From Modestobacter lapidis (GTDB lineage Bacteria; Actinomycetota; Actinomycetes; Mycobacteriales; Geodermatophilaceae), in NCBI GenBank assembly GCA_019779905.1, contig JABAKE010000009.1:62001-126000 (forward strand): a stretch of DNA of 64,000 nucleotides. Reading direction: 5' to 3'. Below the pieces are notes generated by a model, which worked only from the letters and a program-made list of their open reading frames with translations, was not told the DNA's origin and did not search any database. How positions within the stretch are numbered: position 1 is the first letter of the stretch; each line of letters opens with the position of its first letter. Position numbers and translations under genes: made by a program. Shown piece after piece: positions 11,272-27,362 of this stretch.

Positions 11272-11343
11272 TGCCCCCGGCAGGATTCGAACCTGCGCCC
11301 CTGCCTCCGGAGGGCAGTGCTCTATCCCCTGAGCTACGGGGGC
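11272..11343 (-). tRNA. tRNA-Arg (anticodon CCG)
   Basis: The reverse complement folds as a full cloverleaf. The acceptor stem GCCCCCG/CGGGGGC is perfect. The D-arm carries GCTC...GAGC, the anticodon stem CTGCC/GGCAG closes the loop CTCCGGA, and the T-arm GCAGG/CCTGC closes TTCGAAT. The anticodon CCG reads the codon CGG (Arg), which is heavily used in this GC-rich genome. The discriminator base is A, and CCA is not fully encoded. Confidence 0.95.
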
Positions 11344-19929: not shown

Positions 19930-22347
19930 GTGAGCGAGACCACCGACCTCGTCGACGTCGCGAGCGACGCGACCCCGTCGACCGGGGGAGCTGCCGATGC
20001 CGGAGCTGCCCGCTCCCGCCGCCGTGGCAGCGGACTGTCCGGCATGCTGCTGCCCGAGCTGCAGCGACTCGCCGGCGAGCTGGGCATCCCCGGCACGGCG
20101 CGCATGCGCAAGAGCGACCTGATCGCGGCCATCTCCGAGCGCCAGGTGAGCGGCACCGCCGGCACCACCGCCCCGTCCGTGCCGACGCCGCGCACCGACC
20201 GGGCTCCGGACGCCGGCACCGCGCCGTTGGAGGCACCGGTGAGCGGAGGCGGCAACAGCGCCCCGGTCACCGCCCCGTCCACGGGCACCGACACGCCCGC
20301 CGACGCCGCGCCGTCCAAGGGCAGCGCCCGGGCCGACGAGAGCGCCCCGGCGAACGAGAGCGCCCCGGTCAACGGGAGTACCCCGGAGGCCAGCGGGAGT
20401 ACCCCCGAGGTCGGTGTGCGCCGCCGGCGCACCGCCAGCCGGCCGGCCGGCGCGCCCGCCGCCGCCCCCACCGACGCAGCTGCCGCCGACACCGCCCCGG
20501 CGGCCCCGGCGGCCCCGGCGGCCCCGGCGGCCCCGGCGGCCGAGTCGACCGCGACGGCGGCCGAGTCGACCGCGACGGCGGCCGAGCCGACCGCGACGGC
20601 GACCGCCCCGGTGGATGCCCCCGCGTCGGCCGACGCGCGCACCGACGGCGAGCGCCCGCCGCGCAGCCGTGGCAACCGCCGTGAGCGCGCCGACCGGGAC
20701 GGCGGCACCGCCGCCGCCGATCCCAGCACCGAAGAGCAGCCGCGGGGTGGGCGCAACCGTGGTGGCGCCGAGGCGGTCTCCGACGAGCCCCGGGGTGGGC
20801 GCAACCGTGGTGGGGACGCCGAGGCGGGCTCCGACGAACCGCGGGGTGGGCGCAACCGTGGTGCCGACGCCGAGGCCGGCGAGCGCCCCGAGCGCGGCCG
20901 GAACCGCAGCGAGCGCGGCAACCGCGAGGACCGCCCCGAGCGCGGCGGCCGGGACGGCAACCGCACCGACGGTGCCCGCAACGGCACCGACGGTGCCCGC
21001 AACGGCACCGACGGCGGGCGCAACGACCGGACCGACGGCGGGCGCAACGACCGCACCGACGGCGGGCGCCCCGACGAGGACGACGACGACTTCGAGGGCA
21101 GCGGCCGTCGCCGGGGCCGCCGCTACCGCGACCGCAACCGTCGCGGCGGCAACGCCCCCGGTGGACGGGAGCGGTTCGAGCCGAGCGAGCCGACGGTCAG
21201 CGAGGACGATGTCCTGCTGCCGGTCGCCGGGATCCTCGACGTCCTGGACAGCTACGCCTTCGTCCGCACCTCGGGGTACCTGACCGGGCCGAACGACGTC
21301 TACGTCTCGCTGTCCCAGGTGCGCCGCTACGGTCTGCGCCGCGGTGACGCCATCACCGGCGCGGTCCGCCAGCCCCGCGAGGGCGAGCGCAAGGACAAGT
21401 ACAACGCGCTGGTCCGGTTGGACTCGGTGAACGGGCTGGAGCCCGACCAGGCGCGCAACCGCCCGGAGTTCACCAAGCTGACCCCGCTCTACCCGCAGGA
21501 GCGCCTGCGGCTGGAGACGGACTCCAACCAGCTGACCACCCGGCTGATGGACCTGGTCATGCCCATCGGCAAGGGGCAGCGGGCACTGATCGTCAGCCCG
21601 CCCAAGGCGGGCAAGACGATGGTGCTGCAGGCGATCGCCAACGCGATCACCACGAACAACCCCGAGTGCCACCTGATGGTCGTGCTCGTGGACGAGCGAC
21701 CCGAAGAGGTCACCGACATGCAGCGCTCGGTGAAGGGTGAGGTCATCGCCTCGACCTTCGACCGGCCGCCGTCGGACCACACCACGGTCGCCGAGCTGTC
21801 GATCGAGCGGGCCAAGCGGCTGGTCGAGATGGGCCACGACGTCGTCGTCCTGCTCGACTCGATCACCCGGCTCGGCCGCGCCTACAACCTGGCCGCCCCG
21901 GCCAGCGGGCGCATCCTGTCCGGTGGTGTGGACTCGACGGCGCTGTACCCGCCGAAGCGCTTCCTCGGTGCCGCCCGCAACATCGAGAACGGTGGCTCGC
22001 TGACCATCATCGCCTCGGCGCTGGTGGAGACCGGGTCCACGATGGACACGGTCATCTTCGAGGAGTTCAAGGGCACCGGGAACGCCGAGATCAAGCTCGA
22101 CCGCCGGCTGGCGGACAAGCGGGTCTTCCCGGCGGTCGACGTCAACGCGTCGGGCACCCGCAAGGAGGAGATCCTGCTGGCCCCCGACGAGCTGGCGATC
22201 ATCATCAAGCTGCGCCGCGTGCTGTCGGCGCTCGAGCCGCAGCAGGCGATCGAGCTGCTGCTGGACCGGATGCGCAAGACCCGCAACAACATCGAGTTCC
22301 TCATGCAGGTGCAGAAGACCACGTTGGGCCTCGGCGAGAAGGACTGA
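19930..22347 (+). CDS. rho: Transcription termination factor Rho with a very long disordered insert
   Basis: An 805-residue Rho, much longer than the E. coli protein (419) and longer than the M. tuberculosis protein (about 602). Order: a short N-terminus; a Rho-N/SAP-like helical domain at about residues 37-72 (MLLPELQRLAGELGI); a low-complexity insert from about 73 to 420, first Ala/Pro/Thr-rich and then Arg/Asn/Gly/Asp-rich; the primary RNA-binding domain from about 424 (DVLLPVAGILDVLDSYAFVR); and the ATPase with Walker A PPKAGKTMV, Walker B DVVVLLDSITRLGRAYN and the R-loop/Q-loop region. The GTG at 19930 follows GGGAAGGA. It terminates transcription as an RNA-dependent hexameric helicase. 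Its insert is built partly of in-frame tandem repeats. Confidence 0.97.
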   Translation: MSETTDLVDVASDATPSTGGAADAGAARSRRRGSGLSGMLLPELQRLAGELGIPGTARMRKSDLIAAISERQVSGTAGTTAPSVPTPRTDRAPDAGTAPLEAPVSGGGNSAPVTAPSTGTDTPADAAPSKGSARADESAPANESAPVNGSTPEASGSTPEVGVRRRRTASRPAGAPAAAPTDAAAADTAPAAPAAPAAPAAPAAESTATAAESTATAAEPTATATAPVDAPASADARTDGERPPRSRGNRRERADRDGGTAAADPSTEEQPRGGRNRGGAEAVSDEPRGGRNRGGDAEAGSDEPRGGRNRGADAEAGERPERGRNRSERGNREDRPERGGRDGNRTDGARNGTDGARNGTDGGRNDRTDGGRNDRTDGGRPDEDDDDFEGSGRRRGRRYRDRNRRGGNAPGGRERFEPSEPTVSEDDVLLPVAGILDVLDSYAFVRTSGYLTGPNDVYVSLSQVRRYGLRRGDAITGAVRQPREGERKDKYNALVRLDSVNGLEPDQARNRPEFTKLTPLYPQERLRLETDSNQLTTRLMDLVMPIGKGQRALIVSPPKAGKTMVLQAIANAITTNNPECHLMVVLVDERPEEVTDMQRSVKGEVIASTFDRPPSDHTTVAELSIERAKRLVEMGHDVVVLLDSITRLGRAYNLAAPASGRILSGGVDSTALYPPKRFLGAARNIENGGSLTIIASALVETGSTMDTVIFEEFKGTGNAEIKLDRRLADKRVFPAVDVNASGTRKEEILLAPDELAIIIKLRRVLSALEPQQAIELLLDRMRKTRNNIEFLMQVQKTTLGLGEKD
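20494..20601 (+). repeat. In-frame minisatellites 1 in rho
   Basis: Five perfect or near-perfect 9-bp units GCCCCGGCG (20494-20538) are followed by three 21-bp units beginning GCCGAGTCGACC (20539-20601). They encode Ala-Pro-Ala and Ala-Glu-Ser-Thr-Ala-Thr-Ala repeats in the disordered insert of Rho. Both periods are multiples of three. Confidence 0.85.
20743..20863 (+). repeat. In-frame minisatellites 2 in rho
   Basis: Three copies of a unit starting CGGGGTGGGCGCAACCGTGG begin at 20743, 20791 and 20842 (periods 48 and 51). They encode Pro-Arg-Gly-Gly-Arg-Asn-Arg-Gly blocks separated by acidic spacers, an RGG-like RNA-binding pattern. Confidence 0.85.
20965..21069 (+). repeat. In-frame minisatellites 3 in rho
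   Basis: Five units starting ACCGACGG lie at 20965, 20986, 21007, 21031 and 21055 (periods 21, 21, 24, 24). They encode Thr-Asp-Gly-Ala/Gly-Arg-Asn repeats just before the acidic DEDDDD stretch that precedes the RNA-binding domain. Confidence 0.85.
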
Positions 22348-24791: not shown

Positions 24792-25447
24792 CAGACTGCG
24801 GCCTCGTGGCCGACGTCTACGACTGCAGCGACCCCGACCAGCGCACCGCGGGCCTGGCCGCCGCCGCCGCCGCGCTCTCCCGGGGCGACCTGGTCCTCCT
24901 GCCCACCGACACCGTCTACGGGGTGGCCGCCGACGCCTTCACCCCCTCCGCGGTGACCAAGCTCCTCGCGGCCAAGAATCGGGGGCGTTCCATGCCCGTC
25001 CCGGTGCTGGTGGGGGAGGCCGCCACCCTCGCCGGGCTGGTCACCACGGTCCCACCGGTGGCCCACCAGCTGGCCGAGGCGTTCTGGCCCGGCGGCCTGA
25101 CCCTCGTCGTCGAGCACGCGCCGTCGCTGGCCTGGGACCTCGGGGACGCCGAGGGCACCGTCGCGGTCCGGCTCCCCGACGACGACGTGACCCGGGAACT
25201 GCTCCGCCACACCGGTCCGCTCGCCGTCTCCAGCGCCAACCGCTCCGGCCGCCCGGCCGCGACCACCGGCCAGCAGGCGGACTACCAGCTGGGCGAGCAC
25301 GCCGCCGTCGTCCTGGACGACGGCTCTCGGGAGGGCTCGGCGGCCAGCACCATCGTCGACTGCACCGGCCCCACCCCCCGGGTGCTGCGGGTCGGCGCGA
25401 TCGAGGTCGACCGCCTCCGCGAGGTCGTGCCGGAGATCACCGACTGA
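24788..25447 (+). CDS. tsaC: L-threonylcarbamoyladenylate synthase (TsaC/YwlC type)
   Basis: A 219-residue YrdC-fold enzyme that makes threonylcarbamoyl-AMP for the t6A37 modification of tRNAs reading ANN codons. Visible signatures are LVLLPTDTVYGVAADAF, KNRGRSMPVPVLVG, FWPGGLTLVVEHAP, the RLPDDDVTRELL stretch and LAVSSANRSG. It is the short form without the extra Sua5 domain. The GTG at 24788 overlaps the prmC stop (GTGA); a GTG at 24806 is an alternative. The prfA-prmC-tsaC order matches mycobacteria (Rv1299-Rv1301). After its stop comes the tandem repeat array. Confidence 0.94.
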   Translation: MTDCGLVADVYDCSDPDQRTAGLAAAAAALSRGDLVLLPTDTVYGVAADAFTPSAVTKLLAAKNRGRSMPVPVLVGEAATLAGLVTTVPPVAHQLAEAFWPGGLTLVVEHAPSLAWDLGDAEGTVAVRLPDDDVTRELLRHTGPLAVSSANRSGRPAATTGQQADYQLGEHAAVVLDDGSREGSAASTIVDCTGPTPRVLRVGAIEVDRLREVVPEITD

Positions 25448-25473
25448 GCACAGGGCGCCCCTGCGGGCCTGGA

Positions 25474-25895
25474 GGGTCCCGCTGTCATTGCACGCAGCGG
25501 CTTCGCACCGCTGGGGGACGATGCCGGTCACCGATGTCGGGACCGGACCGCGGCGTCGTCCGGCAGGACGACTGTGGGAGGACAGCGCGGGCCCGGAGAG
25601 TCCCGCTGTCATCGCACGAAACGGCTCAACGGCGCGGGGGACGGCTCCGGTGACCGATGTCGGGACCGGGCCACGGTGTCGTCCGGCAGGACGACTGTGG
25701 GAGGGCGGCGCGGGGCCGGAGGCTCCCGCTGTCATCGCCCGCAGCGGCTTCACGCCGCTGGGGGACGATGCCGGTCACCGATATCGGGACCGGACCACGG
25801 CGTCGTCCGGCAGGACGACTGTGGGAGGACAGCGCGGGCCCGGAGGGTCCCGCTGTCATCGCACGAAACGGCTCAACGGCGCGGGGGGACGGCAC
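25474..25895 (+). repeat. Tandem array of ~124-bp units with conserved RNA-like secondary structure
   Basis: Four units begin at about 25474, 25598, 25721 and 25845 (periods 124, 123, 124); the fourth is truncated. They alternate in type (A, B, A, B). Units A share a CAGCGG/CCGCTG hairpin; units B have ACGAAACGGCTCAACGG there. Each complete unit closes with a long stem (unit 1: GGGTCCCGCTGTC at 25474 with GACAGCGCGGGCCC ending 25594, one bulged C) and contains CCGGT/ACCGG with an inner CCG/CGG hairpin, and GTCGTCC-GGCA-GGACGAC (25555, 25678, 25802). In unit 2 the right closing arm changes to GGCGGCG, which still pairs on the plus strand through U-G wobbles. The periods are not all multiples of three, arguing against coding. 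No protein, insertion-sequence or CRISPR signature is present. Confidence 0.85.
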
Positions 25896-25926
25896 GTGGC
25901 CGCGGTGCGGCCCGCGAGGGTCGCAG

Positions 25927-25943
25927 TGTTATAGCGATACCGT
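25927..25943 (+). promoter_or_regulatory. AT-rich element, possible glyA promoter
   Basis: TGTTATAGCGATACCGT is a conspicuous AT-rich spot in very GC-rich DNA, 85 bp before the glyA start. It contains TACCGT (25938-25943), a TANNNT match. I see no good -35 box. The rest of the spacer up to glyA holds no other gene-like signal. Confidence 0.3.
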
Positions 25944-26027
25944 GGGGCGACAGCCGCGCGCCCGACGTCGGCGCACGCGGGCGCCCGTACCGACGCATCG
26001 TCGTCCAGCCCTTGGAGTGCAGCCGCG

Positions 26028-27362
26028 ATGAGCACCCCCACCGAGACCCCCTACTGGGGGCCGGACTTCAACGCCCTGGCGGCCTTCGACCCGGAGATCT
26101 CCGGGGTGGTCCTCGACGAGCTCGACCGGCTCCGCGGCGGGCTGCAGCTGATCGCCAGCGAGAACTTCACCAGCCCGGCCGTGCTGGCCGCGCTGGGCAG
26201 CACCCTGTCGAACAAGTACGCCGAGGGGTACCCCGGCCGGCGGTACTACGGCGGTTGCGAGGTCGTGGACCGTGCCGAGGAGATCGGCATCGCCCGGGCC
26301 AAGGAACTCTTCGGCGCCGAGCACGCCAACCTGCAGCCACACTCGGGGGCCAGTGCCAACCTGGCCGCCTACGGCGCCTTCCTCTCCCCGGGCGACACCC
26401 TGCTGGGCATGGCGCTGCCGCACGGCGGGCACCTCACCCACGGCACCAAGGTGTCCTTCTCGGGCAAGTGGTTCAACGCGGTGCAGTACGGCGTCGACCC
26501 GAAGACCGAGCACATCGACTATGACCAGGTCCGTGACCTGGCCCGCGAGCACCGGCCCAAGCTGATCGTCTGCGGCGGCTCGGCCATTCCGCGGCTGATC
26601 GACTTCGCCGCCTTCCGGGAGATCGCCGACGAGGTCGGCGCCATCCTGATGGTCGACGCCGCCCACTTCATCGGCCTGGTGGCCGGCAAGGCCATCCCGT
26701 CCCCGGTCCCGTACGCCGACGTCGTGACCTTCACCACGCACAAGGTGCTGCGCGGCCCGCGCGGCGGCGCGATCGTCTGCCGGGCCGAGCACGCGAAGGC
26801 CATCGACAAGTCCGCCTTCCCGATGATGCAGGGCGGCCCGCTGATGCACGCCGTCGCCGCCAAGGCGGTCAACCTCAAGGAGTGCCTGACCCCCGGGTAC
26901 CAGGCCTACGCCCGCCAGGTCATCGCCAACGCCCAGGCGCTCACCGAGGGGCTCGCGGCCGAGGGGCTCCGCCCGGTCGCCGGCGGCACCGACACCCACC
27001 TCGCGCTGCTCGACCTGCAGCAGGTGACCGACACCTCCGGCGCCACCGTCACCGGCAAGGTCGCCGAGGCCCGCTGCGACGCGGCCGGGATCGTGCTGAA
27101 CAAGAACGCCATTCCCTTCGACCCGCAGCCGGCCTCGGTCGCGTCCGGCATCCGCGTCGGGAGCCCGGCGGTGACCACCCAGGGAATGGTGGAGTCCGAC
27201 ATGAAGTCGATCGCCTCACTGATCGGCAGCGCCATCCGCGACACCGACGGGTCCCGCACGGCGGAGATCGTCGCCGGCGTCCGCGACCTGGTCGGCGCCC
27301 ACCCTGCCTATCCCCAGCCCGCCCCGCCGACTGCCTCCCCGGCGCCGCACCGGACCGCCTGA
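26028..27362 (+). CDS. glyA: Serine hydroxymethyltransferase
   Basis: A 444-residue PLP enzyme interconverting serine and glycine with tetrahydrofolate, the main source of one-carbon units. Family motifs are GLQLIASENFTS, NKYAEGYPGRRYYGGCE, the PLP lysine at about residue 239 in TFTTHKVLRGPRGG, and IRVGSPAVTTQGM. Start ATG with TTGGAGTG upstream. A Pro-rich tail of about 20 residues ends it. Its place between tsaC and wecA is not the mycobacterial order, so it looks inserted here. The upstream tandem array may lie in its 5' region. wecA begins 4 bp after its stop. Confidence 0.96.
   Translation: MSTPTETPYWGPDFNALAAFDPEISGVVLDELDRLRGGLQLIASENFTSPAVLAALGSTLSNKYAEGYPGRRYYGGCEVVDRAEEIGIARAKELFGAEHANLQPHSGASANLAAYGAFLSPGDTLLGMALPHGGHLTHGTKVSFSGKWFNAVQYGVDPKTEHIDYDQVRDLAREHRPKLIVCGGSAIPRLIDFAAFREIADEVGAILMVDAAHFIGLVAGKAIPSPVPYADVVTFTTHKVLRGPRGGAIVCRAEHAKAIDKSAFPMMQGGPLMHAVAAKAVNLKECLTPGYQAYARQVIANAQALTEGLAAEGLRPVAGGTDTHLALLDLQQVTDTSGATVTGKVAEARCDAAGIVLNKNAIPFDPQPASVASGIRVGSPAVTTQGMVESDMKSIASLIGSAIRDTDGSRTAEIVAGVRDLVGAHPAYPQPAPPTASPAPHRTA

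Follow-up and report, generated by a model that had tools for sequence, protein, structure and literature searches.

A tandem array between yrdC and glyA is a local amplification of a dispersed, REP-like structured repeat in a Geodermatophilaceae-type actinobacterium

Introduction

Directly upstream of glyA, on the same strand, a Geodermatophilaceae-type actinobacterium carries a tandem array whose units can fold like an RNA. Is this array a regulator of glyA, a cluster of small RNA genes, or a local outgrowth of something that has spread through the genome? The initial annotation of the locus left these three readings side by side. Here, we show that the array is built from copies of a dispersed repeat, and we weigh what this repeat may do at the ends of genes.

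Results

The array contains four copies of one repeat

In the window (the whole stretch of DNA analysed, 64,000 nt), the genes are arranged in the order rho, prfA, prmC, yrdC (sua5), array, glyA and, last, a gene for a family 4 glycosyl transferase, as named from Pfam. Several short tandem repeats are also present in the N-terminal extension of the rho gene (window positions 20323-21069). The array covers 25460-25928 on the plus strand and consists of four copies of the repeat (Table 1). As first described, it has a 124-bp period (TRF score 648, TRF span 25463-25891), with unit lengths of 124, 123 and 124 nt. The units alternate as A-B-A-B, since identity is 90.3% between units 1 and 3 and 92.5% between units 2 and 4 (first 65-66 nt), compared to 82.3% between units 1 and 2 and 84.7% between units 2 and 3. 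The hairpin GTCGTCC-GGCA-GGACGAC is identical in three places of the array, and the arm change from GACAGCG to GGCGGCG is present, where a G-U pair keeps the pairing on the plus strand.

Table 1. Coordinates of the array, its units, its hairpins and the flanking genes (window positions)
Feature	Position	Strand	Evidence or remark
Sua5/YrdC gene	24806..25447	+	PF01300; stop codon just 5' of the array
Unit 1, sub-type A	25460..25583	+	model match 25460-25558, 38.0 bits; core diverged
P1 of unit 1	about 25463..25482		
Extra hairpin of unit 1	25524..25546		
GTCGTCC-GGCA-GGACGAC hairpin, read as P0 of unit 2	25555..25572	+	
Unit 2, sub-type B	25584..25706	+	model match 25584-25678, 51.1 bits
P1 of unit 2	25581..25610		
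CGGCTCAACGG of the core of unit 2	25622..25632		
Extra hairpin of unit 2	25647..25669		
GTCGTCC-GGCA-GGACGAC hairpin, read as P0 of unit 3	25678..25695	+	
Unit 3, sub-type A	25707..25830	+	model match 25707-25783, 46.9 bits
P1 of unit 3	25704..25733		
Extra hairpin of unit 3	25771..25793		
GTCGTCC-GGCA-GGACGAC hairpin, read as P0 of unit 4	25802..25819	+	
Unit 4, complete standard copy	25831..25928	+	93.3 bits; agrees with the consensus of dispersed copies
P1 of unit 4	25828..25857	+	GACAGCG-C-GGGCCC / GGGTCCC..GCTGTC, bulged C, GGA loop; covariation support
Core of unit 4, near-invariant	25869..25906	+	CGGCTCAACGG ... GGGGACGGCACGTGGCCGCGGT; column conservation
P3 of unit 4	25907..25924	+	GCGGCCC-GCGA-GGGTCGC; covariation support
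glyA, serine hydroxymethyltransferase	26028..27362	+	PF00464; starts 99 nt past the array

Single copies elsewhere in the genome set the layout of the element, which is about 100-135 bases long: a hairpin P0, a hairpin P1 with a bulged C and a GGA loop, a near-invariant core of about 40 nt that reads AACGGCTCAGCG...GGGGACGGCACCTGGCCGCGGTG in the dispersed copies of this genome, and a hairpin P3. By eye, P0 usually lies 5' of P1. This layout changes how the array is divided. Because the P1 arms of single copies pair locally across the GGA loop, the closing stem proposed for each complete unit is out of phase, its right arm being the 5' arm of the P1 of the next copy, and the GTCGTCC..GGACGAC hairpin most likely belongs to that next copy as its P0. 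Likewise, the fourth unit had been taken for a truncated one ending at 25895; in fact the array ends near 25928, and unit 4 is complete.

A covariance model built from 20 copies of the repeat found exactly the four array units in the window, and the next independent match scored 18.6 bits. Unit 4 is the highest-scoring copy in the window, whereas units 1-3 (38-51 bits) are atypical in that an extra hairpin replaces the standard ending. When folded as RNA, the whole array was more stable than 100 of 100 dinucleotide shuffles (z -5.8), and single units with their flanks gave z values between -2.2 and -5.4. The consensus P1 was seen in the minimum-energy fold of units 1, 3 and 4 and was absent from unit 2 cut out alone.

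P1 and P3 covary and the fold belongs to one strand

The conserved, covarying fold read from the array holds across 188 aligned copies. In the copies from relatives (n=104), 15 of 17 pairs changed on both sides, with 225 cells of such change compared to 66.4 in shuffles (0 of 500 reached the observed value) and at most 52 in controls slid by 1-3 columns. In the copies of the genome itself (n=84), 16 of 17 pairs changed on both sides (238 cells, 73.2 when shuffled, at most 79 when slid). The relatedness of the copies is a caveat to these counts; the slid controls are far lower. An unguided scan of 171 merged copies (17 of the 188 were dropped from the scan and the wobble counts for large core gaps or as near-duplicates) ranked P1 and P3 pairs highest and gave no extra pairs in the core; it used the same columns as the alignments, which were fitted to the covariance model and lean towards its structure. 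Compensatory helix changes as expected of a structured RNA are thus found in both P1 and P3, and the strand-specific fold is established by covariation for these two hairpins and by eye for P0.

The wobble pairs give the strand. Read on the plus strand, P1 has 145 G.U against 5 A.C and P3 has 46 G.U against 3 A.C in the 171 copies; one P1 wobble is itself conserved (124 of 165), and the plus strand gives the better fold in 152 of 171 copies. A further hairpin inside the core, P2, is only suggested (G.U 26, A.C 18). The G.U excess and the plus-strand folding point to a folded single strand, either RNA or single-stranded DNA. Of the 123 triloops of P3, 117 are c-GNA-g, and 44 of its 47 tetraloops are c-GNNA-g; these 44 comprise 31 GNYA and 13 GNRA, showing no preference for GNRA, so the folded strand may also be single-stranded DNA.

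An invariant core of about 40 nt would suit a DNA-level site, for example one for a nucleoid or replication protein. A duplex site, however, explains neither the covarying arms nor the excess of G.U over A.C, and we regard such a site as very unlikely. The strand-specific, covarying fold together with the invariant core would also suit a family of independent small RNA genes, with the array as a multi-copy locus. A simple, crude scan found no sigma-70-like promoter at the array, and the copies are not freely placed but keep to neighbouring stop codons (see below), which makes small RNA genes an unlikely explanation.

The repeat is dispersed in the genome and in its family

We found that the repeat is not particular to the glyA locus. 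A blastn search hit 25 places in the same genome, and the covariance model gave at least 85 matches at E<=1 with 150 of 14117 candidates scored. Among 59 genomes, with at most 70 candidates scored in each, the element was present in 32, namely 23 of 23 of the same genus (this genome included), 9 of 12 from the rest of the family and 0 of 24 beyond it, at 1 to at least 70 copies per genome. Scattered copies, which the initial annotation had named as the mark of a mobile repeat, are therefore seen by blastn, by the covariance model and by the genome survey. One nearly complete genome of the genus (G014) gave a single match among the candidates scored, while relatives gave 7-69 or more. That parts of the genus have so few copies implies that the repeat is not essential. 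In a phylum-wide draw, 1 of 246 genomes matched, which was the genome studied here; at most 16 candidates per genome were scored and the filters were strict, which could hide copies that are weak or few in number.

Tandem copies are common, at 8 of 68 places in the genome and 14 of 87 in relatives, and the array at glyA is thus not special. At this locus, the dispersed repeat has been amplified in tandem. An origin from a plasmid or phage was rejected, since window positions 25795-25940 had no match in two annotated collections; a viral contig (IMG/VR) with the core pattern scored only 22 bits and was taken as a chance match. A literature search, thin on subscription journals, gave no relevant account of repeats or RNA motifs in this Geodermatophilaceae-type group.

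Copies lie beside stop codons

Gene ends were taken from our own codon-usage ORF caller, and unclear places were dropped (12 of 68 in the genome, 4 of 87 in relatives); the overlapping loci L028, L030, L050 and L054 were left out of one locus set. The 56 places classed in the genome comprise 28 between convergent genes, 15 where both genes run against the element, 10 where both run along it and 3 between divergent genes. In 35 of the 43 places of the first two classes, no more than 10 nt separate the 3' end of the element from the facing stop codon. Where both genes run against the element, this holds for all 15 (3.7 expected under free sliding), and between convergent genes for 20 of 28 (15.7 expected). 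The relatives gave 26 of 30 (3.1 expected) and 28 of 36 (15.5 expected), respectively; this sample holds the best-scoring matches and includes mutual orthologues, so its orientation counts are not independent.

At places with both genes running along the element, it is the P0 side that borders on the upstream gene in 6 of 10 cases in the genome and in 1 of 14 in relatives, 9 of these 14 being glyA loci. The common rule is thus nearness to a stop codon and not the use of one strand. The 6 of 10 same-direction copies also show that either strand can face the preceding gene, so a strand-specific role in the sense 3' UTR does not fit all copies. An element of the replication strand was rejected as well, because the bias is mild only (39 copies against the fork and 19 with it, counted by hand in two genomes with the terminus assumed opposite dnaA).

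The array is probably not a dedicated switch for glyA

Among 17 other glyA loci of the genus, 9 carry a copy of at least 40 bits upstream on the glyA strand, about 88-100 nt before the gene; 5 have partial matches of 25-36 bits only, and 3 have none. The best named matches to glyA, Blastococcus sp. LR1 at 90% and Modestobacter sp. Leaf380 at 88%, point to Geodermatophilaceae as the family; these two have nothing above 14 bits at this locus. Three relatives (L127, L129 and L132) have an additional copy on the opposite strand, directly behind the yrdC stop codon. By eye, a block with GATACCGTGG lies between the element and glyA in most loci seen. This block may be the glyA promoter, which would place the element outside the glyA transcript.

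In keeping with the initial annotation, which could not match the units to glycine, SAM, THF or B12 riboswitches, no Rfam family matches the array. At the gathering score, the only Rfam hit in the whole window is a tRNA at 11272-11343, and the array region gave nothing beyond two microRNA models at E 2.7-5.7. A glycine or other riboswitch was rejected on this ground and on the dispersal of the copies. More broadly, the array could be a riboswitch or attenuator acting in cis on glyA, in tandem as glycine riboswitches are. Its position on the glyA strand and the 9 copies at similar distances in the genus would agree with this. Nevertheless, the element stands at dozens of unrelated genes, mostly behind their stop codons, and 3 of 17 glyA loci in the genus have no match and 5 only a partial one. 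Together with the empty Rfam search and a candidate promoter downstream of the element, this leaves a glyA regulator extremely improbable, and the tandem regulatory RNA for glyA that had been proposed is not borne out.

Some copies are long resident, and one clean empty site is seen

For 24 of 66 loci in the genome, an element-bearing locus of a relative has surroundings in common over more than 500 nt, and for 9 of these 24 that locus is from another genus. Six locus sets were aligned. Their copies sit in the same slot and share oddities, such as the P1 of L051, L237 and L250, and in sets B, D and F the slot is the same across genera. A shared neighbourhood does not always mean the same slot: in the counterpart of L039 in the relative G003, the copy lies elsewhere. 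For the aligned sets, the copies are now largely inherited in place. One convergent gene pair gives a clean empty site, with 135 nt between the stop codons in the genome studied and 1 nt in G003. Hence there is long residence in some slots alongside one clean empty site.

We also compared eight gene ends in three relatives. These 24 slots hold 3 copies on the same strand, 1 on the opposite strand, and no match or a weak one in the other 20. Within the 20 copy-free slots, 6 contain perfect stems 14-28 bp in length, which none of 100 simple shuffles of each slot reproduced, and 14 contain no perfect stem of at least 14 bp. The 6 hairpins (L296, L300, L301, L306, L312 and L314) have no T-run and are possibly the ordinary terminator type of these genomes.

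In the genome studied, an unassembled repeat resembling an insertion sequence enters the core at one point, GACGG-CA-CCTGG, in at least five junctions, with CA on both sides. All junctions (left, L087 and L090; right, L037, L092 and L093) are at contig ends, and the 70-nt right end of the insertion occurs at 3 places in this genome and in 0 of 38 other genomes. An IS110-type identity found no support, since the sole PF02371 gene of the genome sits in a locus without the end sequences of the insertion. Insertion sequences of several families, IS110 included, are described as striking REPs at one position (PMC1525189).

The repeat could be selfish, a REP- or MITE-like sequence of no benefit to the host, with its siting at stop codons reflecting tolerated insertions and its paired changes reflecting past transposition as single-stranded DNA. 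The clean empty site would agree with this, as would copy numbers that vary from 1 to at least 70 between genomes. So would the P3 loops: stable DNA loops follow a rule that both c-GNA-g and c-GNNA-g fit. The core of several copies has been struck by an insertion sequence, as REPs are (PMC1525189). However, the Y1 transposase (RAYT, PF01797) was found in 0 of 38 genomes of the family, this genome included, compared to 5 of 14 control genomes. Moreover, the fold and core are kept in the same slot across genera, although an insertion that had died would be expected to decay there. Tolerance at random fails to predict 15 of 15 and 26 of 30 copies beside a stop codon, and the replication-strand preference is mild. 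We consider a purely selfish repeat a possible but doubtful explanation.

Discussion

A repeat kept at gene ends

We favour, with a probability of about 0.55, the view that the array is an amplified, once-mobile, REP-like structured repeat that is kept as a folded terminator or insulator at gene ends. Past mobility and this function at gene ends are both inferred. Since there is one clean empty site and copies are dispersed, the repeat would once have spread as a non-autonomous mobile element, for which no mobilising gene was found. Behind a stop codon, its transcript would fold and block or end transcription leaving one gene or entering a convergent one, and the repeat would so take the slot of a terminator. 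The siting of copies beside stop codons and the perfect stems in 6 of the 20 copy-free slots speak for this view. Between yrdC and glyA, the array may mark the end of the rho-prfA-prmC-yrdC transcription unit and set glyA apart from it, and its number of copies probably arose incidentally, through slippage or unequal recombination. Judged from sequence, then, the repeat probably contributes to transcription termination rather than serving as a dedicated glyA switch.

Several points argue against this view. There is no intrinsic terminator (a G+C-rich hairpin followed by a T-run) in 25400-26100 on either strand, a plain terminator needs no invariant core of 40 nt, and 14 of the 20 copy-free slots lack a perfect stem of at least 14 bp. 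The same-direction copies that turn their P0 side to the upstream gene and the low copy numbers in parts of the genus also count against it. We tentatively raise a bolder reading, in which the repeat would be an RNA module of a new structured class that acts as a terminator or insulator, is portable and depends on a factor, with a near-invariant core that is catalytic or bound by a dedicated protein, Rho or RNA polymerase; it would have spread through the family as a mobile element, in places replacing terminator hairpins. The repeat combines family-wide spread, a fold that covaries and is strand-polar, and an invariant core with the absence of the tyrosine transposase known from REPs, which raises the questions of how it moved and what reads its core. 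If it does end transcription, terminators would here have been taken over by a mobile repeat.

Comparison with known systems

Like the glycine, THF, SAM and cobalamin riboswitches, the array is in tandem and lies upstream of glyA; unlike them, it has no Rfam match at gathering level and its copies stand at unrelated genes. It shares with bidirectional intrinsic terminators the slot between convergent genes, and long perfect hairpins occur in 6 of the 20 orthologous slots that have no copy; the element differs in having no T-run, in its conserved core and in forming one family of common descent. Stem-loops in general cluster behind stop codons (PMC1590033).

ERIC-type repeats (127 bp), small mobile sequences of enterobacteria, are similar in size and intergenic, and they are MITE-like and can fold as RNA (in part after PMC2759123 and PMC2229807). 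The present element comes from a different phylum, differs in sequence and has an unpaired invariant core between two separate hairpins that covary.

REP-like repeats are chiefly known alongside a tyrosine transposase, and mostly outside actinobacteria. In this family, a REP mobilised by a RAYT was rejected because PF01797 is absent from all 38 genomes. Further differences concern the sequence itself. REPs are 20-40 bp long, whereas the element has about 100-135 nt, three hairpins and an invariant core. The hairpin of GTAG-tagged REPs is marked at its foot by the 5' tetranucleotide GT[AG]G, and, according to the same source, Actinobacteridae carry only the IS200-type subclass (PMC6006769). At the 5' foot of P3, the consensus reads GGTG instead (columns 74-77; 99, 91, 93 and 98%), so P3 does not have this foot, and the family has no Y1 transposase in the 38 genomes. 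The element also lacks the A-T first pairs of CGTC repeats, as the outermost pair of P3 follows Watson-Crick rules in 164 of 170 copies, mostly as G-C, and the second is C-G or T-A. The hosts listed in the abstract of PMC3733652 do not include the present bacterial group.

The likenesses to REPs, both GTAG- and CGTC-tagged, lie in behaviour. REPs are dispersed intergenic hairpins in many copies, are found no further than about 20 bp from where convergent genes end and have frequent G-T pairs in their stems (PMC3733652), and both they and the present element are targeted by insertion sequences (PMC3733652, PMC1525189). The present element, too, has many dispersed intergenic copies near the 3' ends of genes. 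Taken together, these comparisons, drawn at the level of sequence, indicate that the repeat, though without the defining tags, behaves as REPs do in the wide sense.
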